Source: a virus
IMG/VR virus record: IMGVR_UViG_3300017989_000150
Location: 1 to 51,685 of that record
Strand: one strand, 5' to 3'
Length of the DNA: 51,685 bases
Shown here: one piece after another, positions 21,205-48,524 of the stretch
Numbering within the stretch: the first letter of the stretch is position 1
Layout of the letters: each line of letters starts with the position of its first letter
Position numbers and translations under genes: made by a program
Notes under the pieces: model-generated
The model's database searches: none
Seen by the model: only the letters and a program-made list of their open reading frames with translations
Told to the model about the DNA's origin: nothing

Positions 21205-22017
21205 CTACCCTTCTCGTCGGATCTTCTCGATGTCCTTGTGCTGCCCTCGAGCCCATCGCCTCGCCAAGATTGGTGCGGCGATGGCTGCGAGGGCCGTTGC
21301 CCCGTACGTACCGAAAGCCCTCGCCATTGCCTTCCTCGATTTAGCTAGCGCTTCAGGTGCGTACCCGAGCTCCTTCAATGCTCTATGCCCGCGTATGCTC
21401 GCCGAGGCCTCATCGACCAGAGTCGGGGCCGTCATGGCCGCAGAGGCCGCTGGGAGGCCATAGGCCGCCAAATCGCTATCTGGAGCAGCTACTCCCGCGG
21501 CTACTCCGCCACCGAGAGCCAACAGAGGAGAAGACATGAAAGCCAGCCGGCTGGCCTTGTTGGAGAACAAGCGCCCAACCCTAGACTTCATCCCCTTGGC
21601 ATGGCCGAGTTCGTGAGCGAGAATTCCAGGATCGGCCTTCTTGGGCACGAAGACGTACTCGCCGAGTTCCTTATTCCACCCCTTGGGCATGTAGTGAGGA
21701 CCAGCTGCTCCGGGTCCAACACCGACCGGGACGTCATGGGTAATCTCGAGACCCTCCAGCCCCATATTCTTGGCCATCCGCTTGACTTCGTCTGGACTAA
21801 GCTCTCGGTCCCCAAACTCCCCAAGCAGCATCCGGCCAGCAGAGAGTGCTGCAGCAAGCTGGCCTCCCATCGTTGCAGTGAGGCCAGCTCCCGCACCAAT
21901 CATGCCTGCCCGAGTCTTAGCCGCCGAGATCCTCTCTCTGTCTCTCCGAGTCAGCTCAGGAGAGCCAGTAGCAGCAACCTTCATCAGGTATGCGCTTGTG
22001 GGGTATTCGGAATACAC
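21205..22017 (-). CDS. Membrane protein with M48-like zinc metalloprotease signature
   Basis: A 270-residue protein. Residues 131-141 contain AHELGHAKG with the HExxH zinc motif (His135, Glu136, His139); about 63 residues later VDEASASIRGHRALKELGY resembles the third-ligand segment of M48/HtpX peptidases (ExxA plus a helix). Hydrophobic segments lie near residues 37-60, 157-178, 183-200 and 236-253. The N-terminus carries the LMKVA tag common to the virion proteins. GTG 22017 follows GGAGGAACAAGTAG and abuts the upstream stop. It could be a virion membrane protease acting at entry; the catalysis is inferred from motif only. Confidence 0.68.
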   Translation of the reverse strand: MYSEYPTSAYLMKVAATGSPELTRRDRERISAAKTRAGMIGAGAGLTATMGGQLAAALSAGRMLLGEFGDRELSPDEVKRMAKNMGLEGLEITHDVPVGVGPGAAGPHYMPKGWNKELGEYVFVPKKADPGILAHELGHAKGMKSRVGRLFSNKASRLAFMSSPLLALGGGVAAGVAAPDSDLAAYGLPAASAAMTAPTLVDEASASIRGHRALKELGYAPEALAKSRKAMARAFGTYGATALAAIAAPILARRWARGQHKDIEKIRREG

Positions 22018-22332
22018 CTACTTGTTCCTCCATGCCGAAGATCCAAATCCGGCACCTGCGCCGCCGCCGAGGGCAGACCCGAGCAGCATTGCGGCCAGAC
22101 GGGTCTCCGGACGGGCTTTGCGAGTCAACATACCTGCGCCGAGGGCACCTGCAGTTCCGCCGCCGAGGCCGCCGAGGAATGCTCCGGTCCCGCCGCCCTT
22201 CTTCGCCGTGGCAGCACCGACCCCGCCACCAAGGAGGCCGCCTCCGAGGGCACCTGAGCCGAGGGCTGCGCCCCAGTCGAACTCTGCGATCTTCTCGAAG
22301 GAACTGAAAAATGCTTGGTCTGACGTGTTCAT
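22018..22332 (-). CDS. Glycine-rich membrane protein with N-terminal FEKIA tag
   Basis: A 104-residue protein: SDQAFFSSFEKIAEF at the N-terminus (tag at 12-16), then two glycine/alanine-rich hydrophobic blocks (residues 20-63 and 80-98) like membrane helices with glycine zippers. Its N-terminus resembles that of the 23375-24160 protein (PDQAFAGVFAKVAF), suggesting a shared targeting element. The site before ATG 22332 is weak (GGGAATAATCA). It is cotranscribed with the metalloprotease gene. Confidence 0.68.
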   Translation of the reverse strand: MNTSDQAFFSSFEKIAEFDWGAALGSGALGGGLLGGGVGAATAKKGGGTGAFLGGLGGGTAGALGAGMLTRKARPETRLAAMLLGSALGGGAGAGFGSSAWRNK

Positions 22333-22639
22333 TGATTATTCCCGTTGGAGGTGAGTTCCGTTCCCTAGTCCCCATTGGAGACACCACACCAACCAAGATA
22401 CACTGCGGCTTCCGTATAAGTAAAGTAGAGAGACCGAGGGAAGGATACGCCCTATCGCCACATACGGGCCCTTGAGTCGAAGTCTCAGGAAGAGGCAAAA
22501 CCCGGGATCAGGTGAGGTTCATACCTCTAGACTTGGCTTGTCGGTGACGACGTAAAGACTGGTGTGGCAGTCGGGGCCAAGTCCCTGGGGGAGACATCCC
22601 CTGGTGCTCAGTTAGCCAACAACTCACGCAGGAGGAGAG
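22333..22639 (+). other. Intergenic region with promoter and untranslated leader
   Basis: This 307-base stretch separates a minus-strand gene from a plus-strand gene. The left part (22333-22413) shows nothing recognisable. A GTATAAG follows at 22414, then 219 bases of apparently untranslated leader with short hairpins (for example GAGGT-TCAT-ACCTC at 22514-22527 and GGGG...CCCC near 22587) before the site AGGAGGAG at 22629. Confidence 0.45.
22414..22420 (+). promoter_or_regulatory. GTATAAG promoter-like motif
   Basis: Plus-strand GTATAAG; the next start codon on this strand is 219 bases downstream (22640), a leader as long as that at 5766-5983. Confidence 0.58.
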
Positions 22640-22960
22640 ATGAGCTTTTTGTCCACTGGCGTCGAAGGACTCGTTGAAGCCGTTGTCGGGGAGATCAGCA
22701 CGGGGACCGTACCAGAAGACGAGCGTCCCTCTGGAATCGATGTGCTCTTGGGGCTGATGGAGAAGAACCAGTGCACGAGGTTCTGGGCCACCCAGAACTA
22801 CAAGGTTAGGAACTGGGACGGCACCACTGATTGGTGCCGGATCTGCCTCCCCCTCCGTGGGCCTATCAAGCCCGGAGTGGCCTATGTGAGGTTCACTGAC
22901 GGAGAGATGCAGCAGATGGATGCGAAGCACTTCTGCCACTCGGTGGAGGTATTCGTCTAA
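22640..22960 (+). CDS. Hypothetical protein with WCRIC knuckle
   Basis: A 106-residue protein of unknown function with a Cys near residue 45, CRIC at about 66-69 and Cys-His positions at the end, which could hold zinc. ATG 22640 follows AGGAGGAGAG. It is the first gene after a long leader and is isolated among minus-strand membrane-protein genes. Confidence 0.7.
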   Translation: MSFLSTGVEGLVEAVVGEISTGTVPEDERPSGIDVLLGLMEKNQCTRFWATQNYKVRNWDGTTDWCRICLPLRGPIKPGVAYVRFTDGEMQQMDAKHFCHSVEVFV

Positions 22961-22986
22961 TAGCCGTCTGCGGTGAATGCGCAGGA

Positions 22987-23018
22987 AGAAAGAACAGGAC
23001 CTGGGGGACCTTGTTCTT
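22987..23018 (+). terminator. Hairpin after the 22640-22960 gene, possible terminator
   Basis: AAGAACAGG and CCTTGTTCTT pair with one bulged base around a GGGGG-containing loop. It lies 27 bases after the stop. No T-tract is adjacent beyond the TTCTT of the stem itself, so termination is uncertain. Confidence 0.4.
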
Positions 23019-23045
23019 AGCCCCTACTGCGGGTAGACTCTGCGC

Positions 23046-23369
23046 ATGGAAGAGTGGTTCTCACATCACCCCTGGATCAACTCGGCGACTACTGCAGACG
23101 CTTCCTCGTGCGTCTACCACCTCTCGCCGACGAGGTGGGTACTCCTACCCAAAGGAGACCCGCCCCAAGACCTCATCGACTTCCTCACAAAAGAGCCTCA
23201 CGTACCCGGAAAGAGCGCCGTCGTCGTCACCATAGAGAAGGGCTTGCACCCGAAGTGGACAGACCACATTGCCATCATCGGAAAGAAGGCTGGTCTTTGG
23301 GACGTGTGGCCGGTGTGGAACGACCCGAGTTGGAAGTACGATACGGGACAGTTTCCGCTCTTGAACTAG
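23046..23369 (+). CDS. Small hypothetical protein
   Basis: A 107-residue protein with tryptophan-rich C-terminal half and a histidine-rich beginning. No family recognised. The site before ATG 23046 is weak (GGGTAGACTCTGCGC). It ends five bases before the minus-strand gene at 23375, so these genes are convergent. Confidence 0.6.
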   Translation: MEEWFSHHPWINSATTADASSCVYHLSPTRWVLLPKGDPPQDLIDFLTKEPHVPGKSAVVVTIEKGLHPKWTDHIAIIGKKAGLWDVWPVWNDPSWKYDTGQFPLLN

Positions 23370-23374
23370 CCTGC

Positions 23375-24160
23375 CTACAGGATTGCCGCACCTGCGCCAA
23401 GACCTGCAGCTCCGGCCGTCATAGCCAAAGCTTCAGGGTTTTGCTTGAGAGCTCCCCAACCGGCTTTGAGGCCGCCCATCCGGGTGCCTGTGACCTTCGA
23501 GCCTTTCATGCCAGACCGAGCAGCTGTTCTGAACCCTTTGCCGGCCCGAGAGAGGAACCCTCCGGGCTTGGCCTTACCTAACAGCTTTCCCAGGCCCATC
23601 ACCCCCTTTCCGAGAAGCGCCTGCTTCTCAAATTGCTGGCGTAGGATCACCTGAGCTGCGTGATCGGCAGCTCCTTTCGACAGGTAGGGGTACTTCGACT
23701 CATCGAAAGGTTCTAGCTCCTCGATGGAGCGTACAGCTTTCTCAGACAGGGGTCTGCTGACGATGGAGTGACCTGCATAACCAAGACCACCGGCGCTGAG
23801 AAGCCCACCAATGATAGCCCCGATGATCTTCCCTCGCCGGGACTTCCCAGCGAGAGACCCGAGACCGGCTCCCGTAGCACCTCCGAGGAGAGTAGAAAGC
23901 CCTGTCGTACGGGCTACTCGAGAGTTGATGTCTCCCTGAGCGTGGCCTACCTCCCGGGGGTCAGTCAGCTCACGCATTGCCAAAGGCATCCCTTCGAGGT
24001 CCCGAATGTCTGCCTCTGGGGCTATCCTCTGGATCTCTTCTGGGCGGTCGGCGATCATCTGCTCGTAGTAGCGGCCTTCGGGACCCTCGTAGGGCTCCCG
24101 AATGAGGAACGCCACCTTCGCAAAAACTCCTGCGAATGCTTGGTCTGGCAAGTTGGGCAT
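23375..24160 (-). CDS. Glycine-rich virion-type membrane protein with repeated tag
   Basis: A 261-residue protein. N-terminal PDQAFAGVFAKVAF carries the tag FAKVA (13-17), and a second, FEKQA, lies at about residue 184. Two long glycine/alanine-rich hydrophobic segments (about 94-140) and a hydrophobic C-terminus suggest membrane insertion. A lysine-rich region between them is unusual for a membrane protein. I place the start at ATG 24160 (AGGTAG upstream). It follows the tail genes and is possibly the last gene of the virion operon. Confidence 0.66.
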   Translation of the reverse strand: MPNLPDQAFAGVFAKVAFLIREPYEGPEGRYYEQMIADRPEEIQRIAPEADIRDLEGMPLAMRELTDPREVGHAQGDINSRVARTTGLSTLLGGATGAGLGSLAGKSRRGKIIGAIIGGLLSAGGLGYAGHSIVSRPLSEKAVRSIEELEPFDESKYPYLSKGAADHAAQVILRQQFEKQALLGKGVMGLGKLLGKAKPGGFLSRAGKGFRTAARSGMKGSKVTGTRMGGLKAGWGALKQNPEALAMTAGAAGLGAGAAIL

Positions 24161-24218
24161 AGCTACTACCTGGCGTGGTGAGAGGTCACCAGAGGACTTA
24201 CGGGTAAAGAGCCAATCT

Positions 24219-25091
24219 CTAGGCGACGAGCTCGGCCCACGCTGTGGTAGCGATCCCATTGGCGACGAGCATGAGAGCCATCATCCCGCCGGCCACGTAG
24301 GGACCTGCCGTCCCGTCGATGTCGACCAGGGTCACGGCTGTGTCGGTCCAGGTGACTACCGGCCACCAGGTCCACGTGCCCTCGAAGTCGCTGATCCAGA
24401 CTCCGTAGAGCCCGCCTTCGGCGCCCTCGAGCTGCACTGCTTCGCCGTCGGTCATCGCTGCGACCAGCCCAGCTCCGCCGGATACGACGGAGACGTAGTT
24501 GGTCATGTCGGCGTCGACCAGGGCAGCAACGTCGTCGGCTGTGGTGGTGATGACACCGCCAGCGTCCGTGGCCAGGTCGATCACGATGGCCCGATACTGT
24601 AGGCCGCCGAGCTCGATGAGGGCCGTCCGAGCGCCCAGTGACTGATTGACGTCCTCTGGATCCCGGTGGAAGACCAGGATACGATTCCCATTGGGGAAGT
24701 CGTTGTTCCCGTTGCCGGGAGCACGAGCGGTGTAGGTCAACGCCGAAGTGCCTGCGCCGATGGTCACTTCCCCCTTCACGGGAGAGGTGTAGCCGGCCTC
24801 GGCCTTGAAGTTGCCGCTGAGGATGACGGTGTTGTCCGCCGCGGCCACACTGATTTGCGCATCGTCGATCAGGGCGATGCCCAGGGGCGTGGCGAAGTCG
24901 TCGTCGTCGACCAGGTTGGAAGACAGCCGCTGGAAAGCCTTGTCGGCATCGCCGCGAATGTCGGTGACGATCTTCTCGATCACCCGGCCAGCTCGGTTGT
25001 ACGCCTGGCCCTCTACTTGCTCGAAGACGGCCGCTTTCGGCTCCAGCTCGATGACCGGCTCGAACCCTGCAAAATGGTCTGCAACTGCCAT
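24219..25091 (-). CDS. Tail structural protein sharing a repeat domain with the sheath
   Basis: A 290-residue protein next to the tail tube gene. Residues about 105-225 follow the same pattern as the inserted repeats of the sheath protein: a T/S-rich strand ending in TARAPG..GN, a strand run after an insert, an I-x-L-A-T-D-A-G-G-x-I-T-T-T-A-D-D-V-A-A-L segment, a V-S-V-V-S-G-G-A-G turn, and L-E-G at the end. It may be a tube-associated, tail-tip or sheath-partner protein; which one cannot be told. ATG 25091 follows GGAGAGTACCGACA. Confidence 0.7.
   Translation of the reverse strand: MAVADHFAGFEPVIELEPKAAVFEQVEGQAYNRAGRVIEKIVTDIRGDADKAFQRLSSNLVDDDDFATPLGIALIDDAQISVAAADNTVILSGNFKAEAGYTSPVKGEVTIGAGTSALTYTARAPGNGNNDFPNGNRILVFHRDPEDVNQSLGARTALIELGGLQYRAIVIDLATDAGGVITTTADDVAALVDADMTNYVSVVSGGAGLVAAMTDGEAVQLEGAEGGLYGVWISDFEGTWTWWPVVTWTDTAVTLVDIDGTAGPYVAGGMMALMLVANGIATTAWAELVA
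24414..24779 (-). repeat. Sheath-type repeat domain copy
   Basis: Encodes residues 105-225 of the preceding gene; pattern-matched by eye with the two sheath copies (27373-27936). Protein-level similarity only. Confidence 0.5.
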
Positions 25092-29403: not shown

Positions 29404-29877
29404 CTAGTATCCGTACCCCGATGAGTACCCTCCTCCACCTCCGAGCCAGCCCTTGCTCTGGGCATATTCGGCAGCGGCCGGAGCACCCACCAATGTGGTC
29501 GGCACCAAGACCCCCATGCCTACGAGGGACTTGAGCTGTTGCCCCTTGGCTTTGGAGATCTGATCACCCATGTCCTGCTGGGACTTCAACAACACTCGCT
29601 GGGCCTGCCGAACCTTCTTCTCGGCCCCTGAAGCTCGGGCCCCGTGCCACATCCGGCCGAGAATTCCAGAGTCTTCGAGAGACTTCCGGTGTTTGGCAGC
29701 GCGCTGTGACTGTTGCCCTATGTACTGAGAGGCCGACTCTTCCATGCCTTTGAGCTGCCCGCGGAGCGCCCTTGTCCTCCCGCCCAGGAGATTTTTGAAG
29801 AGGGCCTCTTTGACCATCTCACCGCCGGACGCCAGCTCGGCCGCCAAGGCCAGGACTTGCATGTCGTACGCGTCCAT
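29404..29877 (-). CDS. Small virion-type protein with MVKEA tag
   Basis: A 157-residue protein with tag MVKEA at residues 21-25, a coiled-coil middle (40-110) and a hydrophobic glycine/alanine segment near residue 118 followed by a GGGGY-rich tail. The tag and hydrophobic end are shared with other virion-region proteins, so it is probably an internal head protein or neck component. ATG 29877 follows GGAGGTGTGATA and overlaps the upstream stop. Confidence 0.6.
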   Translation of the reverse strand: MDAYDMQVLALAAELASGGEMVKEALFKNLLGGRTRALRGQLKGMEESASQYIGQQSQRAAKHRKSLEDSGILGRMWHGARASGAEKKVRQAQRVLLKSQQDMGDQISKAKGQQLKSLVGMGVLVPTTLVGAPAAAEYAQSKGWLGGGGGYSSGYGY

Positions 29878-29879
29878 TA

Positions 29880-30791: not shown

Positions 30792-30795
30792 CCAT

Positions 30796-31587: not shown

Positions 31588-31590
31588 AAC

Positions 31591-32082
31591 CTACTGGCCT
31601 TGGCGACGCTTCAGCTCCGCTGCTGCACGAGCGCCCAACTTGCGCATGAAACGCGGGTCGGAGGCGAGCTTCTCGCCCTCAACGAGGAGACTGGCTTGAG
31701 CCAGCTTCTCTTGACCGATAGCAGCCCGCGCCAAGTTCCGTCCCTGCTGCTCGGCCATGGCGGCCTCGTTGTAGAACTCCATGTAAGCAGCGGTCTTGAA
31801 CATGGCATCTTCGCCAAGGAGGGTCAGAGCCGCAATCTCAGTCTCCGGCATCCGGTTGACGTCGTCGGAGTCGAGCGGGATACCAGAAGCCAGCTTCACG
31901 CGCGTGTCGTCGCTGAGAGCAAAGAAAGCCCGGTCCTCGTCAGAGAGCTGAGAGTCGAACTCTTCTGTGTCTCCAGAGACCATCGAACGAGCAACTTTGC
32001 TGATCCCGCTCTCTGCACTCGCGGTCTTCTCCAACACGAAGTCGTTGAATGGCGCGAGGTAGATGTTCTTGTGTCTTGCCAT
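31591..32082 (-). CDS. Virion-type protein with LEKTA tag
   Basis: A 163-residue protein with the tag LEKTA at residues 17-21 and a second K-x-A (SKVA) nine residues later. The rest is helical and rich in A, E and D. Probably a small head or neck protein; class unknown. ATG 32082 follows GGAGGCTGAC. Confidence 0.65.
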   Translation of the reverse strand: MARHKNIYLAPFNDFVLEKTASAESGISKVARSMVSGDTEEFDSQLSDEDRAFFALSDDTRVKLASGIPLDSDDVNRMPETEIAALTLLGEDAMFKTAAYMEFYNEAAMAEQQGRNLARAAIGQEKLAQASLLVEGEKLASDPRFMRKLGARAAAELKRRQGQ

Positions 32083-32091: not shown

Positions 32092-32526
32092 CTACTGAGC
32101 CATGCTGCGAAGGATGTGGGCAAGCTTCGGGACGATCTCTTCGGTGGAGGTTGCCTTCTCCTCCTCCTCCTTCTCGTCCTTCTTCTCTCCCTCGTCCTTC
32201 TTCTCGGCCTCCTCTTGGGCGACCTTTTTCATCTCGTCCCAAAACCCGTGGAGCTGGACGCGCCCGAGGAAGTCGTGGAAGGCAGCTACCTTCTCCGCCT
32301 GCTCCTCTGGAGAGTCCTCTCCAGGAGGCTCCGGCGCAGACTCATCCGGCTCTTGTGCGGCTGCAGCCAAAGCTGCGAGCTCTTCTTCAGAGAGCTGGCT
32401 GAGGTCTACCTTGTCGGCCACCTCTTCGGGAGAGGGAGCAGTCTCTTCCGGCTCATCCCTCTCCAGGGGCTCGACACCGCTGGCTTCCTCTGCGGTCTTG
32501 AGCATGAAATCGAGTACTCCTGACAT
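32092..32526 (-). CDS. Acidic virion-type protein with MLKTA tag
   Basis: A 144-residue protein with the tag MLKTA at residues 8-12, then a strongly acidic E/P-rich region and a K/E-rich helical C-terminus. A second motif (MKKVA) lies near residue 99. This composition resembles scaffold or decoy-like internal proteins. ATG 32526 follows GGAGAAGACGAA; upstream extension would overlap another gene. Confidence 0.64.
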   Translation of the reverse strand: MSGVLDFMLKTAEEASGVEPLERDEPEETAPSPEEVADKVDLSQLSEEELAALAAAAQEPDESAPEPPGEDSPEEQAEKVAAFHDFLGRVQLHGFWDEMKKVAQEEAEKKDEGEKKDEKEEEEKATSTEEIVPKLAHILRSMAQ

Positions 32527-33757: not shown

Positions 33758-34822
33758 CTAGGAGAGCACCACCTGCGGATAGGTGGGGCCGCCGTCGAAC
33801 ACCGGGTTCGTCTGCTGGAACAGGTCGTCCTCATCCGGCAGCGTGTCGGAGTCGGTGCTTCCGCCGGACTGCCCATTGTAGAGCTCCAGCTTGGCGACCG
33901 AGCTGATGTTGGCGATAGCGATCGCCACATCCTGCCATGCCTGCCAACGGATCAAGTTCGCGATCTTGTCGATGTAGAACTTGACGTCGTTCAGGATGAA
34001 GAAGAAGCCCAGGAAGTCCGGCTCGGTGTAGCCGTAGACGTTCCCTGTCTGGAGCAGATCGGTCTTCACCGTCCGCACGACCAGGTAGTTGAGGACCTTG
34101 TCGTACTTGTAGCCCTCGACCAGAGTCTCGGACTGCTTCGGTGAACCTGCATCCTCGACCGTCCACTTCAACAAGTTGTTGAAGTCGATGTCGTTCATCC
34201 AGATCTTGTTGAGGCGCTTCCGGTTCCCGTCCTCGAGCATGGAGTTCGCCAAGTCGACGAAGTCCGGGCGCTCGATGTCGAAGCGGTCGCCTGTGACGCC
34301 GTGGGCCACGCGGTCAGCCGATGCCTGCGCGCCGAGGATCCGGCGGCCGGTGGAGACGATGGCGGCCTGCGAGAACGTCAACCATTCCAGGTCCTCGATC
34401 TCTTGCAGGTCCTTGCCTGTGTTCTCCTCGATCAGCTTGGTGACCGGAGCCTCGTACGCGAGCAAGTGCTGCTCGCGGATCTGGAACATCTCGCTCGAGA
34501 TGGTGAACAGCGGAATGTCCACACGCTTGGTGCTGACGATCCGTGCCTCCGGCTGTGCCCCAAAGGTGAGGGGAACGGCCTTCGAGCCAGGTTCCAGGTC
34601 CTTCCGGACGACAAGGGTGTCGTTGGTGAGGCTGGGGATGACCCGCTGTGCGCTTGGGTCGAGCCTCTCGGGCGGGAGAATCCGCCGTACAGCGGACTCC
34701 TCGCGCAGGTGGTCACGCACATAGGCGCGGCCGGCCTGGGCCATCTTCTTGATGCCCCCCTCCTCATTGTCCAGGAAGGCCATGAAGGCCCGGTTGAACT
34801 GTACGGGGTTCTTTGCGCTCAT
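33758..34822 (-). CDS. Major capsid protein (HK97-fold candidate)
   Basis: A 354-residue protein in the standard MCP position, after small scaffold-like genes and before connector-like ones. Its composition is that of a phage capsid protein: an N-terminal helical region with an internal K-x-A tag (IKKMA near residue 26), then beta/alpha alternation with WTVEDAGSPKQSETLVEGYKYD and a C-terminal part with LIRWQAWQDVAIAIANISSVAKLEL. This resembles major capsid proteins of large myoviruses. No signature motif exists for the fold, so the call rests on gene order and pattern. ATG 34822 has GGAGTGAATTG upstream. Confidence 0.82.
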   Translation of the reverse strand: MSAKNPVQFNRAFMAFLDNEEGGIKKMAQAGRAYVRDHLREESAVRRILPPERLDPSAQRVIPSLTNDTLVVRKDLEPGSKAVPLTFGAQPEARIVSTKRVDIPLFTISSEMFQIREQHLLAYEAPVTKLIEENTGKDLQEIEDLEWLTFSQAAIVSTGRRILGAQASADRVAHGVTGDRFDIERPDFVDLANSMLEDGNRKRLNKIWMNDIDFNNLLKWTVEDAGSPKQSETLVEGYKYDKVLNYLVVRTVKTDLLQTGNVYGYTEPDFLGFFFILNDVKFYIDKIANLIRWQAWQDVAIAIANISSVAKLELYNGQSGGSTDSDTLPDEDDLFQQTNPVFDGGPTYPQVVLS

Positions 34823-34866
34823 CAATTCACTCCATGCAGCTAGATGCTACGGTTGTCCCCTACTCG

Positions 34867-35370: not shown

Positions 35371-35766
35371 TCAGTCCTCGAAGTCGAAGTCCCCACCGAG
35401 CACGAGGCTTGAAATGGGGTCCATCTTACCGCTACCGGTCGAGTCGTCGCTGTCGTCCGACCCTTCCTTCCCGAAGAAGTCGCCGGTAGCGTACTCCAGT
35501 CCCTGCTCGACCACATCAAGAGACTTGTCGGAAGCGAGGGTCTCTTTGACCCAGTCTTCCACGCTCTCATGCGCGCCGTCGATGATACCACGATCGACAG
35601 CCTTCTTGGCAAGCTCTCTGGTACGCTTCTCCCGATCGTGCTCGCTTTTGCACTCGGCGAGCTTGGTGTTCTCGTCCCGGAGCTGGCGAATCTGCGCCTG
35701 CTGAGTACGGAGAACCTGAGCGGTTTTCGCGAAGAGGGCCTGTACTTTTGTGCCTGACTGGTTCAT
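35371..35766 (-). CDS. Scaffold-like coiled-coil protein with FAKTA tag
   Basis: A 131-residue protein: tag FAKTA at residues 12-16, a coiled-coil region (QLRDENTKLAECKSEHDREKRTRELAK), and an acidic tail with DSDDSTGSGKMD and DFDFED at the end. Short coiled-coil proteins before the MCP are usually scaffolding proteins that are degraded by the prohead protease. ATG 35766 follows GGGAAGGAC. Confidence 0.62.
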   Translation of the reverse strand: MNQSGTKVQALFAKTAQVLRTQQAQIRQLRDENTKLAECKSEHDREKRTRELAKKAVDRGIIDGAHESVEDWVKETLASDKSLDVVEQGLEYATGDFFGKEGSDDSDDSTGSGKMDPISSLVLGGDFDFED

Positions 35767-35775: not shown

Positions 35776-36450
35776 TCAGCTGCCCCGAGTTTTCACCCCT
35801 GCGGCTTCCGCATTGTCAAAGTTCCGGTGGAGAACCGGATCCGTGAAGGGGGCTTCGTTGAACAGACCGCTCAGGACACCGACCTTGCTGACTTGGACAG
35901 CCTGGCGCTTCTTGAAGGCCTGGACTGCGCCATGATCCGCCAGGAATGGGATCCGGGTGCTGATCGGGGTCCCCTCACCGGCAGCGTACTCTTGGGGGGA
36001 CGTTGCCGATTCGTTCTCAGCGGCAGCGACCTTGTCGGGGATCCCTGCGGGGGTCTCCGTCACTGTCGCGATCTGCGGAGCGTTGTCGGAATGCGTGTCC
36101 CGCCCCTCGTCGGTACCTGGCTCGGTCTCGGAACCGCTCTGGGCGGTATGTGGACTCGGCCCGACCGTGTCTTTGGGTTGGGTTTCGATGGTGCTCCGGC
36201 TCTCGTCCGTTGGCGGCTGTACCGCTGGTGAGTCTGTCCCTGTGTTGGGACCGACCTCACTGATCTTCGAGAGGGCGCGGGGGTCCCCAGCGAGGCGCTC
36301 GAACGCCGACGCCAGTTTATCCACGCTCGCGTCGAAGGACGGAGCTGGAGCGCTCGTTGGCTCTTGGCGAGCTTGGGAAGAAGCTACTTTCTCCCGCGCA
36401 CGCACCAACGAGCCCTGGATGAGCTGTTCGATTTCGCTGGTTCGCTTCAT
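35776..36450 (-). CDS. Low-complexity virion-region protein
   Basis: A 224-residue protein dominated by a disordered T/S/P/E-rich middle (residues 65-160), with possible tags EKVAS near the N-terminus and DKLAS and DKVAA later. Function unknown; possibly a scaffold or internal-core component, since it shares an operon with the protease. ATG 36450 overlaps the upstream stop (GATGA). Confidence 0.58.
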   Translation of the reverse strand: MKRTSEIEQLIQGSLVRAREKVASSQARQEPTSAPAPSFDASVDKLASAFERLAGDPRALSKISEVGPNTGTDSPAVQPPTDESRSTIETQPKDTVGPSPHTAQSGSETEPGTDEGRDTHSDNAPQIATVTETPAGIPDKVAAAENESATSPQEYAAGEGTPISTRIPFLADHGAVQAFKKRQAVQVSKVGVLSGLFNEAPFTDPVLHRNFDNAEAAGVKTRGS

Positions 36451-37352
36451 CAGTCTCCTCCGCTGAGAGCTGCTGCTGTACCAAGGCCACCGGCTGCGAG
36501 TGTGCCGCCGCCGATCAGCTGAGCTGCTCTCCGAGCTCCGATGATGTCAGCAGGCTCGAGTCCGGGAGCACCCTTGGAGTAGGTGGACGGGCGCTTGAGC
36601 AAGCTGCGGATGATGCTTTCGTCATCGCCGACACCCAATACACCTCGAAGCTGCTCTTTTCGGGATCCGAAAGACCCGACGTTGGCCAGCGGAGAATCGG
36701 CAGGGCTCTTCATCGCGTCTCGAAGGCGTCTACCTCCTCGACCCAAGCTCTCCGCTGCCCCGCTTACAGCTTCTCGTGCTGCTCTTCCGAAAGCCACCTT
36801 CTCCAAATACTCGTCGAAGGAGACCCCTGCCATTTCGGCATAGGCGATCTTGGCCATCTCGTCGGCGAGAGCCTCAGCGGCGACCTTTTGCATGAACTCG
36901 TCTTTGGCGACCATCGCCGATGCTGCCACCTTGACATGGCGATCGTTGTCGGCGAGCAGGTGAGGATACTGTTGAAGGAAGGCAGCTCCGATGGATGCGA
37001 GGGCCTCTTTGGTCTCCTCGTCCATCTTCTCCTTCTTCTCTTCGGCTTTCTCCTCAGCCTTGTCTTCGACCTTCTCTTGCTGAGCTTTGAACTCGGGAGG
37101 AACTTCGCCCTCCATCGCAGTCTTCTCCTCAGCCTTCTGCTCTGGAGTCTTCGACTCGCTGGTCGACCCGTTGGTCGCCTCGCTTGTCTCCTTCTCCTTC
37201 TTCTCTTCGTCTTCTTGGGCCGCCTTTCCGAGGCCCGCGAGGGCGTCGTTCACCAGATCGTCGATCTGGGAGGAAGCAAGCTTGGTCGGACCTCCCTGGT
37301 CGGGCGGAAGGTTCTCCATGATGCGACGAAGGATGTCGACTTCACGTGCCAT
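36450..37352 (-). CDS. Scaffold-like E/K-rich protein with repeated K-x-A tags
   Basis: A 300-residue protein. An E/K-rich coiled-coil stretch (residues 45-105) precedes a segment with three tags, FMQKVA, MAKIA and YLEKVA, each followed by a small helix (AGVSFDEYLEKVAFG). The C-terminus is glycine-rich and hydrophobic. AGVSFDEY/F also occurs in the neighbour at 37357-37620. The layout fits an assembly core or scaffold protein processed at several sites. ATG 37352 follows GGAGCTGATCAG. Confidence 0.62.
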   Translation of the reverse strand: MAREVDILRRIMENLPPDQGGPTKLASSQIDDLVNDALAGLGKAAQEDEEKKEKETSEATNGSTSESKTPEQKAEEKTAMEGEVPPEFKAQQEKVEDKAEEKAEEKKEKMDEETKEALASIGAAFLQQYPHLLADNDRHVKVAASAMVAKDEFMQKVAAEALADEMAKIAYAEMAGVSFDEYLEKVAFGRAAREAVSGAAESLGRGGRRLRDAMKSPADSPLANVGSFGSRKEQLRGVLGVGDDESIIRSLLKRPSTYSKGAPGLEPADIIGARRAAQLIGGGTLAAGGLGTAAALSGGD

Positions 37353-37356: not shown

Positions 37357-37620
37357 TCAGCTCCTTACGATATCGTCCAGACTCAACGGGTTTCTGGCCT
37401 TGAACTCGTCGAACGAGACCCCGGCTTCTTCCGCTGCTGCGATCTTCTCGAGCTCGTCGAGAAAAATCGCTGCCGAGTACTCTCCGCTCAGTACACCAGC
37501 AGAATGCCTCTGAGCCGCTTCCTTTGTCAAGGCCCGGTTCGCGTCTATGATTGCCAGCGCAGTACTGCGGTTGACGATCAGACTTCCGATTTCGGCCGCT
37601 GCTTTCTTGTCGATCGGCAT
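37357..37620 (-). CDS. Small virion-region protein with two tags
   Basis: An 87-residue protein with tags LTKEA near residue 32 and LEKIA near residue 59, followed by AEEAGVSFDEFKARNP, a variant of the segment in the larger neighbour. The shared segment suggests the two genes arose by duplication or use the same interaction helix. ATG 37620 follows GGAGCGACGCG. Confidence 0.6.
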   Translation of the reverse strand: MPIDKKAAAEIGSLIVNRSTALAIIDANRALTKEAAQRHSAGVLSGEYSAAIFLDELEKIAAAEEAGVSFDEFKARNPLSLDDIVRS

Positions 37621-37630: not shown

Positions 37631-39229
37631 CTACGAGAACAACCTGTTTGCGCCGGTGGCGTGATAACCAGTCATCAAACCTACAGACGAAATGAGGGGG
37701 TGGTCGGCGACGAAGTTCTGGAGAAGTGACAGGTCTCTTCCGGCTCTGCGGTCGGCGTTCCACTTTGCCGACAGGAGGTAGGTTGGAAGAATTATGGCCA
37801 TCGCTGGTACCAGTGTGTCGCCTTTGAAGCTCGATACCTTCTCTAGGGGATCGAAATCAGCCGCTGCGAAGATATCAAACAGGTCTCCACGTTGCAACAT
37901 GGCAGATTTCAAGAAAGAGGGCAACCCTGCCATGCCGTTGATATATTTTGCGTACTCTCGACCCACTTCGTCAAGCACTGTGTTTGATGTCTCTTGAAGT
38001 GGGCCTTCCTGAGGTCGCGTTTTCCCAGACAGCACCACGATTATACGCTTGCTGACGAAAGGCTGTAGTACCGATCTGCGGGGCATCCAGTCCAGCAATT
38101 TTCGTAAGATGCCGTCGGAGATGTGGCCTGGGTCGAATAGGTACTTCCCGCTGTCCCGCAGTAGGGGCAATTCCCCACAGGAGAACACGTGTCCGTTGTG
38201 GTGTAGCTCGGAGGCCATTCTTGGATGGCCGTTTCTTCGAAGGAAGAGATACTGGAACTCTCGAGGCCGAAGGACCGTGCCAGTTGCTGCCGTCGACGCG
38301 AGGATTTGAGGAAGACTGAATCCAGCGAGATGTTCCAGGAGATCGTCCGACAACGGCTCCTCATGCTGGTATAGTGGCCTAATGACCTTGGAATAGACTG
38401 CCGGAAACCTCTTCTCGAGTTCAGCGAGTTTGACCTTAGCTGTCTTCGATGCAGCCGCCTTCTCGAATGTCGCCGAGGGCTCAAGCGGGACATAGTTCTC
38501 CAAGAGATGAGACATAGACCTGCCGGCGGAGGAGCTCGCTACCTTCTGGAGGATGGCAGCCTCTTTTGCAGCGCGCACGAATACAAAGCTCAAGTCGAAA
38601 AACCTGGGCTCTGGATTGTAGGCGCACACGACTCTACCGTCAGGAAGGATTTGGGCCATCTGGGACTTGAGGTGGGAGCAATACTCAGCTGTACTCTTGG
38701 AACGCTGTCCGCAAATCGAGCAGACGTCGTACTTGACCTTTGCCCCCATCGAGAGGTCGATCATCTTCCCGGCATCCAGCCGGCTGACGACACTCCCGGC
38801 CCCGACTCTCTCAGCCTTCGCGCGATCGATACGAAAGATGGCCTCCACCCGGTGCATGAGAGGCTCGTAGACGGCTACCGGTACCGTACCAAAGCCTCGG
38901 TCCATCACCTTGTTCTGGTGGTGTTGGTAAGCGCGAGCGTACGTCTCAAAGCTCTTGTGGCCCCAACGCGGGTTCTCTGGTTCAAGCCACTTCCTCTGGA
39001 AGGCGTCGCCGTTGACGTTGCATCCCCAAGTCTCGAAGGAACCCAAGGGGACTACGACCAAGACCAGATCGTTTTCTGAGAACGGTTGTTCAGACAAGTA
39101 GCGGGCAATCCTCGGATGGAACTCGCTCTCGCTTGCTGTCTTGAGGTGTCCATCTGCACCAACAACGTGGTACGGCCTACCCCAAGCAGGGCCCCAAGCA
39201 CCGGAGCCTATTTTGATGAGCTTTTCCAC
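37631..39229 (-). CDS. Prohead protease-like protein with long C-terminal extension
   Basis: A 532-residue protein. Residues 50-215 contain VNGDAFQRKWL, HHQNK (His103/104) and a later LSMG (Ser160) followed by CSICGQRSKSTAEYCSHL (Cys170, 173, 184, His186), a pattern I associate with prohead maturation proteases of large myoviruses. Ser160 and His103/104 are candidate catalytic residues. Residues 216-532 are an extra region with its own K-x-A tags (QKVAS, FEKAA). Location between internal proteins and scaffold genes fits. GTG 39229 follows AGGTAGATT. Protease activity is inferred, not shown. Confidence 0.68.
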   Translation of the reverse strand: MEKLIKIGSGAWGPAWGRPYHVVGADGHLKTASESEFHPRIARYLSEQPFSENDLVLVVVPLGSFETWGCNVNGDAFQRKWLEPENPRWGHKSFETYARAYQHHQNKVMDRGFGTVPVAVYEPLMHRVEAIFRIDRAKAERVGAGSVVSRLDAGKMIDLSMGAKVKYDVCSICGQRSKSTAEYCSHLKSQMAQILPDGRVVCAYNPEPRFFDLSFVFVRAAKEAAILQKVASSSAGRSMSHLLENYVPLEPSATFEKAAASKTAKVKLAELEKRFPAVYSKVIRPLYQHEEPLSDDLLEHLAGFSLPQILASTAATGTVLRPREFQYLFLRRNGHPRMASELHHNGHVFSCGELPLLRDSGKYLFDPGHISDGILRKLLDWMPRRSVLQPFVSKRIIVVLSGKTRPQEGPLQETSNTVLDEVGREYAKYINGMAGLPSFLKSAMLQRGDLFDIFAAADFDPLEKVSSFKGDTLVPAMAIILPTYLLSAKWNADRRAGRDLSLLQNFVADHPLISSVGLMTGYHATGANRLFS

Positions 39230-39236
39230 AATCTAC

Positions 39237-40307
39237 CTAGTAGGCGTCACCAACTGCTTGCCTGAGAGGGTCTGGGATCTCTGTCCCTGAAGCTTGAAGA
39301 CTGGCAACTTCTTGTCCCAAGGCTCTCGCCCTGGCTTGGTCAAATGCGAAATTCAACTGCGCCTGCTGCTGCTCTTCAGCTCGCATCGCCTCCTGGGCCT
39401 GGAGGTTCTCCATCTGAGCATCCCTCTCGAGTATCCCGCCGCGCTCACGGGCCCTGGACAAGGCCTCTGCGTGCTCCAACTGAGCCGCCCCAGACCCCAA
39501 CCCGCGCTGTTTGGCGATAGCATACTCTTCTGCCAACCTCTCTGCCGATGACGGTTGGAGGAGGTCTGCTGCCGTTCCTACCCCCTTCAATACGCCAGCT
39601 GCTTGAGCAGCGTAGTCGGAAACGGCCTTCGTTCTCGGGACCCCGCCCTGGAGTTTCGACGGAAGCACGAAGGGCTCCAACCCGTGCTCGAGCATGACCC
39701 GGGGCTTTGTTTGACCAGGGTCAACGTGTCCGTGAACCGTACCGATCTCTCGGATCAGTGGAGCCATCTGTGCCGCCGCCAACGTAGGATCTTTGGCGAT
39801 GTCTGGGGACAGCGTGTAGAGAGCATTATAGGCGTTTCGGATCTCCTTTTCGGGGACAGGAGTTTCTGTATCACGGGCGACGGCTTTGAGCTCTGTCCCG
39901 TATTCCTGCATCATATTCCGATAGGACCGCGACTTGTCGATCGTCTTCATCTGCCCCTGGAGGTAGTCGACCCCCATAAGACCAGCAGTAGCCCCACCGA
40001 TAATCCCTACGGCCTTGGCAGGTTTGCTCGTGACAACTCGCTTCAGACCAGACCAGAAGCTGGCTGACTTTTCCATAGAAGACCTCTTCATCATCATCGC
40101 CTGACGTTTGACAGCAGGATTCACCCGCCCTTTCGTGAGCAGGTCCTGCCGCTTAGACTGGCGTTTTTGGAGGGCCTTGCTAGGCGAGGTGAACATGGAC
40201 GCCGTCACCAGCGGGTTGGTCATCGCCTTCAGGGGATTTCCGGAAGACATAAGAGCAAGCCCAAACGTCCCTCCGGCTAATGCCTTGTCGGCAGTTCCCT
40301 CAAACAT
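39237..40307 (-). CDS. Virion-region protein with MEKSA tag and hydrophobic segment
   Basis: A 356-residue protein: tag MEKSASFW at residues 78-85, a hydrophobic block around 97-114 (AVGIIGGATAGLMGV), and a Q/A-rich helical C-terminal third. Its start ATG 40307 overlaps the upstream stop and follows a G-rich ribosome site. The hydrophobic block after the tag recurs in several virion-region proteins. Role unknown, possibly an internal head protein. Confidence 0.62.
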   Translation of the reverse strand: MFEGTADKALAGGTFGLALMSSGNPLKAMTNPLVTASMFTSPSKALQKRQSKRQDLLTKGRVNPAVKRQAMMMKRSSMEKSASFWSGLKRVVTSKPAKAVGIIGGATAGLMGVDYLQGQMKTIDKSRSYRNMMQEYGTELKAVARDTETPVPEKEIRNAYNALYTLSPDIAKDPTLAAAQMAPLIREIGTVHGHVDPGQTKPRVMLEHGLEPFVLPSKLQGGVPRTKAVSDYAAQAAGVLKGVGTAADLLQPSSAERLAEEYAIAKQRGLGSGAAQLEHAEALSRARERGGILERDAQMENLQAQEAMRAEEQQQAQLNFAFDQARARALGQEVASLQASGTEIPDPLRQAVGDAY

Positions 40308-41337
40308 GCGAGACCCCCTCCCCCCTCAAGGCCATGCGTGTCGCCTGAGCGTGTTTCTCGGCCAGGTCTTCCCTGGCGGCGGATAAGACTAGCGTCTCTT
40401 TACGGAGCTCCCCGATCGTCTTTGCGGCTTTGACCAACGGATGTTCCGGGTTGATCCCGTCCGAAGTCCGAACCCGCTCGAGGAAAGAGCGGAACTTGGA
40501 GCTCGCTTGCTTGTCGAAACCTGGGCCATCGGGGCGGTCCCACAAGGTAGCCCTGCCATCGTCTGTTTTTTGCCCTCTGGCAATGAAGGCCTCGAAGGCG
40601 TCATCCCGGGGGTCGTGATGGGCAAAGGCCTCCTTGTTCAAGAAGCTGACAAGAGCCGTCCCGACATCACCCGCGGCCGCCTCTTTGACGACATACGAGA
40701 TCTCTTCCGGAGTCGACCCCTCCAAGAGCATCTGATTGGCCGTCTTGAGTAGCTCGCCGATAGCCTCGGCGAAGCCGATCTCGTTGCAGTCTATCTGCTC
40801 CTGGATGACGGATTTGGCTTCCGCTACCTTCGCCGCCACCCGGTCCCAGTCGGCGAGCTCGTCAGAGGGGATTGCCCCAAGGTCGTACTCCTCGGTGCCG
40901 TGACTTCGGAGACTGGCCTCCTTCTCCATGGGAGAATCAAACAGGATCTCTTCCAGACGGTTCATCGGGATGGTCTCCAAAAAGGACAGTGAGGACGGAC
41001 GCGCTGTGCTCGCCGTCTTCTCCAACCAGTAGTTGAACTCGGAGCTGCTGGCCGTCTTTTCGACCTCAGACTCGTCCTCGTTCTTGGTGGAGACGACCCC
41101 GTCCAAGGCCGCCGGCTCAAACCTGATTTTGTGCGGGCAGTCCGTTGAGGCCAACTTGTTCCAGGCAGCCTGGTTGGTAGCCTCAACGACTCTGGCGATC
41201 TGCTCGTTGTTGTACTGGGTGTCCCCGAGGGCATCTACGACCGCCGCCGTGAGGCTGGAAACCTTACCGTCGATGTAGAAATCGGACGCTTGGTCAGCTA
41301 ATCTCAGGACGTCGGACTTGTCAATGAGAGGATTCAC
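40300..41337 (-). CDS. Virion-region protein with many K-x-A tags
   Basis: A 345-residue protein without recognised domain. It has at least seven copies of the tag: EKTASSS, EKTASTA, MEKEASL, VVKEAA, FLNKEAF, FDKQASS and EKHAQA. No other protein in the window has so many, so it may be extensively processed. The start is uncertain: TTG 41370 would coincide with the -10 of the promoter at 41370-41399, so I prefer GTG 41337; neither has a strong Shine-Dalgarno. Confidence 0.6.
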   Translation of the reverse strand: MNPLIDKSDVLRLADQASDFYIDGKVSSLTAAVVDALGDTQYNNEQIARVVEATNQAAWNKLASTDCPHKIRFEPAALDGVVSTKNEDESEVEKTASSSEFNYWLEKTASTARPSSLSFLETIPMNRLEEILFDSPMEKEASLRSHGTEEYDLGAIPSDELADWDRVAAKVAEAKSVIQEQIDCNEIGFAEAIGELLKTANQMLLEGSTPEEISYVVKEAAAGDVGTALVSFLNKEAFAHHDPRDDAFEAFIARGQKTDDGRATLWDRPDGPGFDKQASSKFRSFLERVRTSDGINPEHPLVKAAKTIGELRKETLVLSAAREDLAEKHAQATRMALRGEGVSHV

Positions 41338-41369
41338 GTCAATGACCCGCAGAGAGTTTACACGAGACA

Positions 41370-41399
41370 ATCGTATTGGAGACGGTGCAGCAGTGTCAA
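41370..41399 (-). promoter_or_regulatory. Sigma70-type promoter for the virion operon
   Basis: The minus strand reads TTGACA (41394-41399) and, 18 bases later, TACGAT (41370-41375). This is the only clear -35/-10 pair I found; no GTATAAG was seen between it and 24160, so this promoter could drive the head genes. It sits between the divergent genes. Confidence 0.5.
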
Positions 41400-42079: not shown

Positions 42080-42083
42080 CCTC

Positions 42084-42090
42084 GTATAAG
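42084..42090 (+). promoter_or_regulatory. GTATAAG promoter-like motif
   Basis: Plus-strand GTATAAG five bases after the regulator gene stop and 26 bases before ATG 42117. Confidence 0.62.
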
Positions 42091-42116
42091 GTCGGGTACA
42101 ACTACGGAGGGAATCT

Positions 42117-42722: not shown

Positions 42723-42745
42723 CCTGCGGGCAGTTGAAGAGGCTT

Positions 42746-42778
42746 CCAGTGAGGGAGGGCTGCACTCTCCCTCACTGG
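42746..42778. terminator. Bidirectional hairpin terminator
   Basis: CCAGTGAGGGAG (42746-42757) pairs with CTCCCTCACTGG (42767-42778): a 12-bp perfect stem with a 9-base loop. It lies between convergent genes (stop at 42722, terminase stop at 42772), the right arm reaching into the terminase C-terminal codons. No T-tract; it could end both transcripts. Confidence 0.72.
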
Positions 42779-45797: not shown

Positions 45798-46587
45798 CTT
45801 CCTCCTCCAAGAAATCAAGATGGTCGACACTGGGGATCATGTCAATGACTCCACCATCAAAAACTACCGAAGGCTCTACTTCCGGCGGGGCTACCCGACG
45901 AAGCTCGTTGTCGAGAACCAAAACTGTCGAAACCCAATTTCGCGCATCTTGGGCGTTGGCCCGGCCTGAGTGCATGTCCTTTGAGTACCTCATCAACGCG
46001 ACGTCACGCATGTACGCCAGGCGCTCTTCGTCCGACATCGGGTTGGGGACCCCGAAGTCCAAAGAGAGGCCAACGATAGGATACCCGTCGGCAGCAGCCT
46101 GCATCCCTACCGTTGCCCCGATAGCCCGGAAGTACCTCTCCTTCTCTTTCACCGTCAGTATGGCGAAGTTCCAGAAGAGCTGCTGGTAGTCCTCGACCAT
46201 CTGACGCATGACCCCCTTCGGCTTCCCGAGGAGGGACAACTTTCCGATGATGTCCTCCCAGGACATTCGGGGGTTCAACAAGCAGAGCTCGAGGGTGTGG
46301 CGAATCTGGGAGTGGAAGCAGATGGCCCGTGCAGCCTGTACCCTTTTCGAGTTGGCGTTCAAGAGGCCGCGAGAGAGGTTCCTCCGGTCAGCCCACCGAC
46401 GAAGCTGGTTGGTGGGGGTGAATCTCCGGTTCTTGATGACTGGTACAGTCGCCCGAAGCCTCTCCAACAAGTCCTCGTCCGGCTTTGGGAGGCGTAGGAG
46501 ATCGAACTCGTCCTCAATCTCTGCGTCTTCCCACCTGCGGGAGATCAGCAGTGAAAGGTAGATCTCGTGTGGAACATGGGTCGTCAC
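45721..46587 (-). CDS. Hypothetical protein upstream of the terminase region
   Basis: A 288-residue, basic and helical protein with an acidic E/D-rich tail (LEEEDERRLLEEEDD) and several Trp and Arg residues. No family recognised. GTG 46587 overlaps the upstream stop (GTGA) and has GGGCGAGAT before it, so it is coupled with the 646-residue virion protein. Confidence 0.62.
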   Translation of the reverse strand: MTTHVPHEIYLSLLISRRWEDAEIEDEFDLLRLPKPDEDLLERLRATVPVIKNRRFTPTNQLRRWADRRNLSRGLLNANSKRVQAARAICFHSQIRHTLELCLLNPRMSWEDIIGKLSLLGKPKGVMRQMVEDYQQLFWNFAILTVKEKERYFRAIGATVGMQAAADGYPIVGLSLDFGVPNPMSDEERLAYMRDVALMRYSKDMHSGRANAQDARNWVSTVLVLDNELRRVAPPEVEPSVVFDGGVIDMIPSVDHLDFLEEEDERRLLEEEDDTTNRGQLIPFVPKQ

Positions 46588-48524
46588 ATCTCGCCCGTCT
46601 TCAGTTTCCGAACTCCCTCGAGGACCTTCTCCATACTCTTCATGGCCCCGATGGCGTCGTTCATCGGTAATTCAGAGTAGCCCATCTGACTCGCGACTAC
46701 CAGCGACGCCAGGGTTTTCTGGGCGTCTTCGAGGTCGCTCTCTGCCTCGACGTAGTTTCTGGTGTTCTCGGGATTGACGAAGCCGAGAGAGAGGATAGCG
46801 TCGATGGTCTCTGACCTGACCTCTCCGTGCTTGGCCATCTCGTAGAACAGAGCCTCGGCAGTCCGAACGAGCAACGCCGGGTCCCCTTTCAGGGTAGCGC
46901 AGACCTCCTCGGCGTGCTTCGTCAAATTGCCGTACTCTCCGTAGACATCCTCGGTAATGTCCTCTTGGATGTCCCCATACAGGATCACGGTTCCGAGCAC
47001 GTCGGCTTTTTTGAGAAGCCTCTTGGGATCTGGAGCTCCGACAGCGGCCAGCTTGAAGTGGGCTTCTTTCGTGTCGATGAACTGGTCATTGAAGCCGCTG
47101 CCGACAAGGGAATACGAGCCGCTGCCATCTCCGAGAAGCCTGGCAGCTTCCTTGGATCCCATGGCGTGGAAGGCCTCGAACTCCCCCGGAGTCGCGACCA
47201 GGTCGACCCTCCCCTCGGGAGGAGCGATGCACTTCAGGGAGTAGGAGGCCGGGACGAGGAATACGTCCTCCTCAATCTCAGTCGGCTTGATGACGTCACA
47301 ACGAACGATGGTCACACGGTCGCCGAGGTAGGTCTCGACAGCCCAGCCTGGACCGTAGTTGGTCTGAGCCTCGCCCTGCACCACGAACGGGGTAGTGCAC
47401 ATTACGTCCATTTTCACCGGGTCCGTGCAGAGGAACACACACTCCCCAGAAGGCTTGATGTCCGGAGCTGGGAGGTCGAACTCTCCTACCCACTTGCCGG
47501 CAATCTCCTCTTGGGCAGCGGCGTTCTTGCCGTTGAAGAAGATCTTCATGGGCAAGGTGATCCCGGTGAAGTCGAGAACTCGCGTGATGACGTACCCAAC
47601 AAGGGTCTCTCCGACGTTGGTCTTGACCATCCATTCGCCGGTCTTGTCCACCTCTTGTGCCTCAGCGAAAACGTCGGTGTCCAGGACCGGACCAGGGCCC
47701 CCAACTACGGCGTAGCCGTCAACGTTCGCCTGTTTGACGATCTCCGAGGGAAGGATGCTGATCTCCTTACGGGTAGCCGACTTCGCTGCTTCCTTACGCA
47801 AAGCGGCGCTCATCGACCGCACAGAATACCTGTGCCCGACTGATGGCTCGATGAGGAAAGTGTCATGGTGCCCTCCGAGCTCGGAAGACGTCTTCATGAT
47901 ACTTTGTCTGTCCCGACGCCGCCGTTTCTTCTCAGCCCCAACCATCTTCTTGATGAAGCGCGCAGCGAAAGGGGACTTCCTCGCCTCTTTGATCATCGCC
48001 ATGATGTCGCTTTCGCGAATGGAGGACAGCTTGGTGCTGATGTAGCGGTTCCCGTAGTGGTTCATGTGATCCGGTGGCTGCAGATCCTGCTCCTGCAGCA
48101 TGTCTTGCACATCCGGGTCGCCGGCGGGAACCGCGTCTACGGCAGCCTGAGAGAGCATCGCTTCCCGAATCCGCTCTTCTGTGAGCGGGAAGATCTCGTC
48201 GTCCTTTGCGAACGTAGCAAAAGGGAGGATGTCCCAATCGCGAACGAAGATGGGAATCTTGATTTCGTTCTTCTCTTGCTCACCAGCGTCGTCATCATCT
48301 CCGATGATGGCGTACCCGAGCATGTATCCCTCTTCAGGGTCCACTCGGACCTCCTCGATCTCCGGCTCGTACTCTGAGAGGTACGGATGTTCGGAGAACA
48401 AGGCCGTAGTGATGTCTTCTGGCCACGTCTCTGCGGGACCCTCAACACGGTTCTTGATGGTCGAAGAGACCATCGGAGCACCCTGCTTGTAGAATTCACG
48501 CTCGAGTAGGAGGTTAGCGGTCAT
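46584..48524 (-). CDS. Large virion-type protein with tags
   Basis: A 646-residue protein of unknown function. Tags LRKEA, IVKQA and LTKHA are present; the middle (about 270-450) is beta-rich with many G/V residues, and the N-terminal 230 residues are acidic with a K/R-rich patch. It may be an internal or baseplate protein. ATG 48524 shares an ATGA junction with the preceding gene, with GAGG nearby. It does not look like a portal: no typical conserved segment is visible. Confidence 0.6.
   Translation of the reverse strand: MTANLLLEREFYKQGAPMVSSTIKNRVEGPAETWPEDITTALFSEHPYLSEYEPEIEEVRVDPEEGYMLGYAIIGDDDDAGEQEKNEIKIPIFVRDWDILPFATFAKDDEIFPLTEERIREAMLSQAAVDAVPAGDPDVQDMLQEQDLQPPDHMNHYGNRYISTKLSSIRESDIMAMIKEARKSPFAARFIKKMVGAEKKRRRRDRQSIMKTSSELGGHHDTFLIEPSVGHRYSVRSMSAALRKEAAKSATRKEISILPSEIVKQANVDGYAVVGGPGPVLDTDVFAEAQEVDKTGEWMVKTNVGETLVGYVITRVLDFTGITLPMKIFFNGKNAAAQEEIAGKWVGEFDLPAPDIKPSGECVFLCTDPVKMDVMCTTPFVVQGEAQTNYGPGWAVETYLGDRVTIVRCDVIKPTEIEEDVFLVPASYSLKCIAPPEGRVDLVATPGEFEAFHAMGSKEAARLLGDGSGSYSLVGSGFNDQFIDTKEAHFKLAAVGAPDPKRLLKKADVLGTVILYGDIQEDITEDVYGEYGNLTKHAEEVCATLKGDPALLVRTAEALFYEMAKHGEVRSETIDAILSLGFVNPENTRNYVEAESDLEDAQKTLASLVVASQMGYSELPMNDAIGAMKSMEKVLEGVRKLKTGEM

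Follow-up and report, generated by a model that had tools for sequence, protein, structure and literature searches.

The window analysed here is the whole 51,685-nucleotide (51.7-kb) stretch of the IMG/VR virus record IMGVR_UViG_3300017989_000150, a fragment of a large contractile-tailed phage in which the minus strand carries nearly all genes. Its right arm encodes the terminase (42772–44487), a prohead protease, the major capsid protein (MCP) and tail genes (Table 1), and the head block follows the order 40300, 39237, protease, 37357–35371 and MCP, a layout shared by the phages Arash and D181. The subject of this analysis is a short motif, [F/L/M/I/V]-x-K-x-A, which recurs in the proteins of this block. 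The initial annotation, made from the letters of the window, had described it as present in almost all virion-region proteins, often near the N-terminus, and had suggested that it could be either a cleavage site of the prohead protease encoded among them or a head-packaging signal. All eight examples that it named lie at the residues it gave, the protein at 40300–41337 holds eight copies where at least seven had been counted, and the protease is indeed encoded among the motif-bearing proteins.

Enrichment was scored against 400 within-protein shuffles, which keep composition, in a right-arm set of 29 proteins (9,090 amino acids) and a left-arm set of 36 proteins (6,157 amino acids), and by an unsupervised scan ranking all XxY pairs and AxBxC triples, with F, L, M, I and V pooled as h. 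The right arm contains 44 copies of hxKxA against 11.2 +/- 3.5 expected (z 9.4), a count reached by 0/400 shuffles, while the left arm contains two against 6.3 expected. The scan placed KxA first of 338 pairs and hxKxA first of 713 triples in the right arm, compared with ranks of 206/338 and 399/413 in the left. The signal is located in the head block at 29404–41370, in the gene at 46584–48569 and in a few genes at 21205–24259; within the head block the motif again ranks first (32 against 6.4 expected), and the eight proteins of the terminase, tail and other right-arm group show no excess (1 against 2.2). “Almost all” was thus too broad, as 17 of the 29 right-arm proteins are carriers. An N-terminal placement holds as a tendency but not as a rule, with 15/44 copies falling within the first 60 residues of their own protein, residues that make up 19% of the total.

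The motif has K-x-A as its fixed core. A hydrophobic residue two positions ahead of K, part of the motif as first described, is preferred yet dispensable, as at the MCP site. T4 gp21 (Peptidase S77) cuts after (L/I)-x-E, and when the T4 head genes were put through the same scan as a positive control, AxhxE came first, with [LI]xE enriched at z 5.8 in known gp21 substrates against 2.8 elsewhere, so that the scan recovers a known protease code. With the motif numbered as a site cut after Ala (P3 Lys, P1 Ala), KxA sites were compared by odds ratio (OR) with the remaining hxXxA sites of the same proteins. Glu before K (P4; OR 5.2), V, T, E, I or Q between K and A (P2; OR 3.7) and Ser after A (P1'; OR 5.2) are favoured, and G, P, D, R or N at the middle position (P2; OR 0.17) and bulky or basic residues following A (OR 0.21) are disfavoured. 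Information is concentrated in P5–P2', about seven residues, giving the extended pattern (D/E)(E/D)-[L/M/F]-E-K-[V/T/E]-A|[S/A], and these subsite preferences are protease-like. As the initial annotation had remarked, the motif differs from the known L-x-E and A-x-E sites: K and A take the place of the P3 and P1 residues of T4 and SPN3US.

This pattern makes the bond after Ala the most likely cut, with Ser preferred at P1'. The HK97 protease tolerates Lys at P1, and the same protease might here cut after Lys (K|x-A), leaving Ala as P2', a proposal in keeping with the Lys being invariant at every fixed site. However, the strongest preference beyond K and A is for Ser or Ala behind the Ala (OR 5.2), resembling the P1' of SPN3US, and K-x-A matches the P3-x-P1 spacing of both T4 and SPN3US, which together render a cut after Lys highly improbable.

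Comparison with relatives revealed purifying selection on the two core residues. Between the head proteins of the window and those of its nearest relative in the collection (L001, on the 167-kb contig G001; 48% identity), K and A are both retained in 23/29 motifs against 25/90 control pairs, a single K or A elsewhere being retained at 40–45%; between Arash and D181 (44% identity) the figures are 28/37 and 21/71. The x positions drift freely within such pairs, as in LEKTA/LEKAA and MEKAA/MEKVA. That the motif arises by chance, or from the composition of helical or coiled-coil scaffold proteins rich in Ala and Lys, could find support in the abundance of A, K and E in scaffold proteins, and in the slight elevation of hxRxA in the window (z 2.2). 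The shuffles nevertheless preserve composition, the same-composition controls hxAxK, hxKxxA, KA and KxxA, together with hxExA, show no enrichment in the window by the shuffle test, hxKxA ranks 1/713, and the motif is kept through 40–50% identity and is invariant in the MCP and protease. A compositional or coiled-coil origin was ruled out by the shuffles and permuted patterns, and its probability is close to nil.

Positional conservation is strongest in the MCP and the protease. The MCP K and A (residues 26 and 28 of the window protein, numbered from Met2) are invariant across 18 aligned orthologs, in an N-terminal stretch whose other residues are mostly variable, and in Arash and D181 the K-x-A directly precedes a ..(V/I)(R/K)xxLRE segment. 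The MCP is predicted to be cut after the Ala of IKKMA, with the loss of ~28 residues. All 17 aligned protease sequences have K30 and A32, which close a prodomain variable in both length and sequence. A second KxA lies behind the catalytic domain in most relatives, reading LQKVA|S in the window and D181, LEKVA|N in Arash and LEKVA|S in phage G, and stand-alone homologues with no extension (PaBG, GR7B, Illi2, Yoloswag) terminate at about this position. Motif copies on both edges of the catalytic domain are the pattern expected of a zymogen that frees itself.

The protease was matched to phrog_18299, head maturation protease, by 17/17 aligned members (best E 1.4e-9), and hhalign linked it to phage G gp19 (99.2%) and to annotated head maturation proteases (97.8%). 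H103/H104 and S160 are invariant in the 17 proteases and align with an H and an S-x-G in PaBG, Yoloswag and GR7B, suggesting a catalytic role for these residues. None of the 17 members matched Peptidase S77 (PF03420), on which T4 gp21 itself scores 372 bits, and hhalign detected no homology to gp21 (probability 0.3%). Searched against PDB sequences, the protease profile gave chance matches only, and the AlphaFold2 model of the protease matched no PDB structure at E < 0.001. Judged by these profile comparisons the protease is of a known kind, a head maturation protease, but not detectably of the T4 gp21 family. Its catalytic region also contains a C-x2-C...C-x-H cluster (CSICG...YCSHL; residues ~170–186), common to phage G, PaBG and others, that is a possible zinc site.

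The motif follows the lineage of this protease. When viral contigs were searched with the MCP, 28 relatives were found at 37–75% identity, their genes being taken from mechanical longest open-reading-frame calls; all 28 are enriched in hxKxA, at z values from 2.2 to 9.0, and the control patterns stay flat for the most part. In the pooled family, KxA is the top enriched pair (1001 against 537) and hxKxA the top triple (470 against 127). Cultured relatives of the protease include Vibrio phages D181, D148 and D69 and Salmonella phage Arash; Bacillus phage G is a more distant one. The Arash head block holds 33 copies against 5.2 expected (rank 1), compared with 34 against 26 in its other structural proteins and 28 against 39 in its non-structural proteins; the D181 head block holds 36 against 6.2; and the 2–32 kb head region of phage G holds 30 against 11.4, with KxA at rank 1 and N-terminal copies in the protease and portal. 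In the 167-kb relative, the 60–80 kb chunk bearing the head genes has 30 against 6.6, the adjoining 40–60 kb chunk 16 against 6.2 and two further chunks 8 against 2.8 and 12 against 5.0, the remainder lying near background. The window, Arash and the 167-kb relative agree in having the motif less often in non-virion proteins.

Wider protease relatives (PaBG, Sebata, Yoloswag, BcepSauron, GR7B, Illi2 and Rctr197k) exhibit no significant KxA excess, nor does the T4 region, making the motif lineage-specific. Were it read by another factor common to head proteins, such as a host chaperone or the membrane or ejection machinery, the Gly-rich or peptidase-like character of several tagged proteins, which could be ejected, would fit; such a factor would have no reason to flank a protease domain, however, and the lineage pattern tracks the protease subfamily, with no excess in the T4, PaBG, Illi2, Yoloswag or GR7B regions. 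We regard such a reader as having a vanishingly small chance of being correct. In the head region of Vibrio phage GR7B (L041), which has a related protease, the top pair is IxE (39 against 21), a weak, T4-like signal, and the protease code may switch within the superfamily.

Together, these patterns lead us to put at roughly 85% the probability that K-x-A is the recognition core of this family's prohead protease, cutting being something we infer from sequence. The initial annotation had left the choice between cleavage site and packaging signal open, and cleavage is strongly supported by the MCP arm, the protease edges, the conservation of K and A only, and the subsites. A head-packaging signal would account for the many copies near the N-terminus of small proteins (15/44 in the first 60 residues), and T4 internal proteins bear an N-terminal targeting peptide of 10–20 residues (PMC7411985). 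Alone it is insufficient, because it leaves unexplained why copies are invariant in the arm of the MCP and at either flank of the protease domain; nor would it predict up to nine copies in each scaffold protein, and the roughly seven residues of information and the sharp preference for a small residue after Ala are unlike an amphipathic helix. As the sole function, packaging is therefore very unlikely. Under the cleavage reading the N-terminal copies, at residues 11–25 in several small window proteins, probably terminate capsid-targeting propeptides, and by analogy with T4, whose internal proteins lose an N-terminal targeting sequence to gp21 (PMC7411985), these short propeptides may well double as targeting sequences.

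The sequence of events would run as follows. The protease would be assembled within the prohead as a zymogen and would first free its catalytic domain at the KxA sites on both flanks. It would then cut the scaffold and core proteins, with up to eight or nine copies each, at KxA, leading to degradation of the core, trim ~28 residues off the MCP N-terminal arm at its KxA, and take short N-terminal peptides of about 12–25 residues off small internal proteins, the presumed outcome being a head able to expand and fill. Because T4 internal proteins lose their targeting sequence to gp21, the small N-terminally tagged proteins, one of them a HELGH zinc metallopeptidase (PF04298), are candidates for being packaged and ejected.

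Several observations weigh against cleavage at K-x-A as a general account. The hydrophobic P5 is missing from many MCP sites, and IDKIA near MCP residue 285 is conserved within the folded domain and hence cannot be a site; it and the lone VDKYA of a tail-sheath-like protein (25915–28617) are surely copies that are not cleaved. In phage G the motif is found in the protease and portal but is missing from the matching place in the MCP, gp27, so that cleavage of the MCP does not extend to every member of the lineage. The relatives L019, L023 and L027 have no second site right behind the protease domain. Finally, the AlphaFold2 models were too poor for judging site exposure, with a predicted local distance difference test (pLDDT) score of 51 for the protease (17 sequences) and 41 for the MCP (18); most motif copies of the protease lie in its residues 1–33 and 208–289, stretches of low confidence in the model, an observation that is only weakly informative.

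Table 1. Motif-bearing proteins and predicted sites in the window.
Feature	Position	Strand	Basis
Major capsid protein, HK97 fold, KxA in N-terminal arm	33758..34825	-	phrog_2522 major head protein; profile matches phage G gp27 (PDB 6wkk), E 1e-3
MCP site IKKMA, residues 25-29	34739..34753	-	no variation at K and A among 18 aligned orthologs; LVKEA/LTKEA in Arash, D181
Prohead protease, N-terminal prodomain, long C-terminal extension, candidate catalytic His104/Ser160	37631..39229	-	phrog_18299; hhalign
Protease site 1 HLKTA, residues 28-32, prodomain/catalytic domain junction	39134..39148	-	no variation at K30 or A32 among 17 proteases
Protease site 2 LQKVA|S, residues 227-231, immediately past catalytic domain	38537..38551	-	same place in Arash, D181, phage G
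Scaffold/core-like protein, eight motif copies	40300..41337	-	nine in Arash gp220, its counterpart by gene order
Head-cluster protein, MEKSA residues 78-82	39237..40307	-	closest relative has MQKTA
Small core-like protein, three motif copies	37357..37620	-	motif count
Acidic, probably disordered scaffold-like protein, four motif copies	36450..37352	-	weak matches to phrog_14063 (head scaffolding protein, E 0.02) and phrog_12 (portal, E 4e-4)
Scaffold-like protein, VDKLA residues 43-47	35776..36450	-	motif position
Small head protein, N-terminal FAKTA residues 12-16 (nt 35719-35733) and LAKKA	35371..35766	-	L001 keeps both copies
Acidic protein, MLKTA near N-terminus and two more copies	32092..32526	-	motif positions
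Head-cluster protein, N-terminal LEKTA|S residues 17-21 (nt 32020-32034) and two others	31591..32082	-	motif positions
Candidate internal head protein, MVKEA residues 21-25	29404..29877	-	motif position
Probable internal head/core protein (661 aa), five motif copies	46584..48569	-	five-copy ortholog in 167-kb relative
Candidate packaged protein, N-terminal FAKVA residues 13-17, later FEKQA ahead of Gly-rich segment	23375..24160	-	motif positions
Candidate packaged Gly-rich protein (104 aa), N-terminal FEKIA residues 12-16 (nt 22285-22299)	22018..22332	-	motif position
Zinc metallopeptidase (HELGH), candidate packaged/ejected, N-terminal LMKVA residues 11-15 (nt 21973-21987)	21205..22017	-	PF04298, 28.5 bits, cut-off 27

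Like the window, phage G has an annotated zinc-dependent peptidase, gp2, whose gene is close to the phage G head genes. The 167-kb relative encodes, beyond the block that it has in common with the window, a 367-residue protein with seven KxA copies (46326–47429 of that contig) and two small proteins with an N-terminal TAFEKCA (58213–58521 and 58566–58991), all candidate packaged proteins. A guess that the 661-residue protein of the window is homologous to Arash gp218 was unsupported on comparison. The ~1.4 kb from the terminase to the scaffold-like gene (41371–42771) contains no convincing gene on either strand. In the left arm, a perfect 71-bp direct repeat (2721–2791 and 9638–9708) links two genes, 2431–3150 and 9630–9914, in which it encodes the identical peptide EMREGREAACRARDAALVERDE; this is either a recent duplication or an assembly effect.

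Prohead-protease specificity is known for a few model phages only, and in open-access papers no report of a KxA specificity for a prohead protease, and no paper on phage Arash, was found. The phage lineage concerned is large and mostly uncultured, with Arash, D181 and phage G as cultured members. If true, the KxA code predicts which proteins are processed, the points at which the MCP and protease mature and, probably, which small proteins are packaged and ejected, and the unsupervised scan is applicable to other blocks of head genes for inferring protease codes.

Among the closest known systems is that of phage G, with a homologous protease (gp19; hhalign 99.2%) and KxA at rank 1 in its 30-kb head region; it differs from the window in having no KxA at the equivalent place in gp27 and no long C-terminal extension of the protease. 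As with T4 gp21, the motif is concentrated in the core, scaffold, MCP and protease, and short N-terminal propeptides are predicted on internal proteins, whereas the site residues differ and the two proteases have no detectable sequence similarity (hhalign 0.3%). The protease sites of SPN3US have been determined by mass spectrometry as A-x-E at P3–P1, with a P4 preference and Ser at P1', in N-terminal propeptides of 20–254 residues, and its protease removes its own C-terminal propeptide (PMC10052503). The present site resembles that of SPN3US gp245 and the phiKZ-type (A-x-E|S) in its P3-x-P1 core with a free middle residue and in its preferences at P4 and for P1' Ser, as well as in multiple sites per propeptide, short N-terminal propeptides and self-cleavage with a C-terminal propeptide, here predicted; P3 and P1 are Lys and Ala rather than the Ala and Glu of SPN3US, and the likeness is one of site layout.

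Herpesvirus assemblin, a protease–scaffold fusion, cuts an Ala-Ser bond. Homology of phage prohead proteases to the herpesvirus protease has been reported in a reference cited in PMC7411985. On balance, it seems probable that the lineage formed by these large contractile-tailed Salmonella, Vibrio and Bacillus phages relies on a Lys-x-Ala|Ser code not reported before and shares the assemblin Ala-Ser bond and, in part of the lineage, the succession of protease domain, release site and C-terminal extension, and that this code lists packaged, probably ejected, proteins that include a zinc metallopeptidase. Unlike assemblin, Lys three before the bond is a fixed feature here; read from the predicted site and layout, the likeness lies in Ala before and Ser favoured after the predicted bond, and in the placing of a release site, and then of a longer C-terminal part, behind the protease domain.

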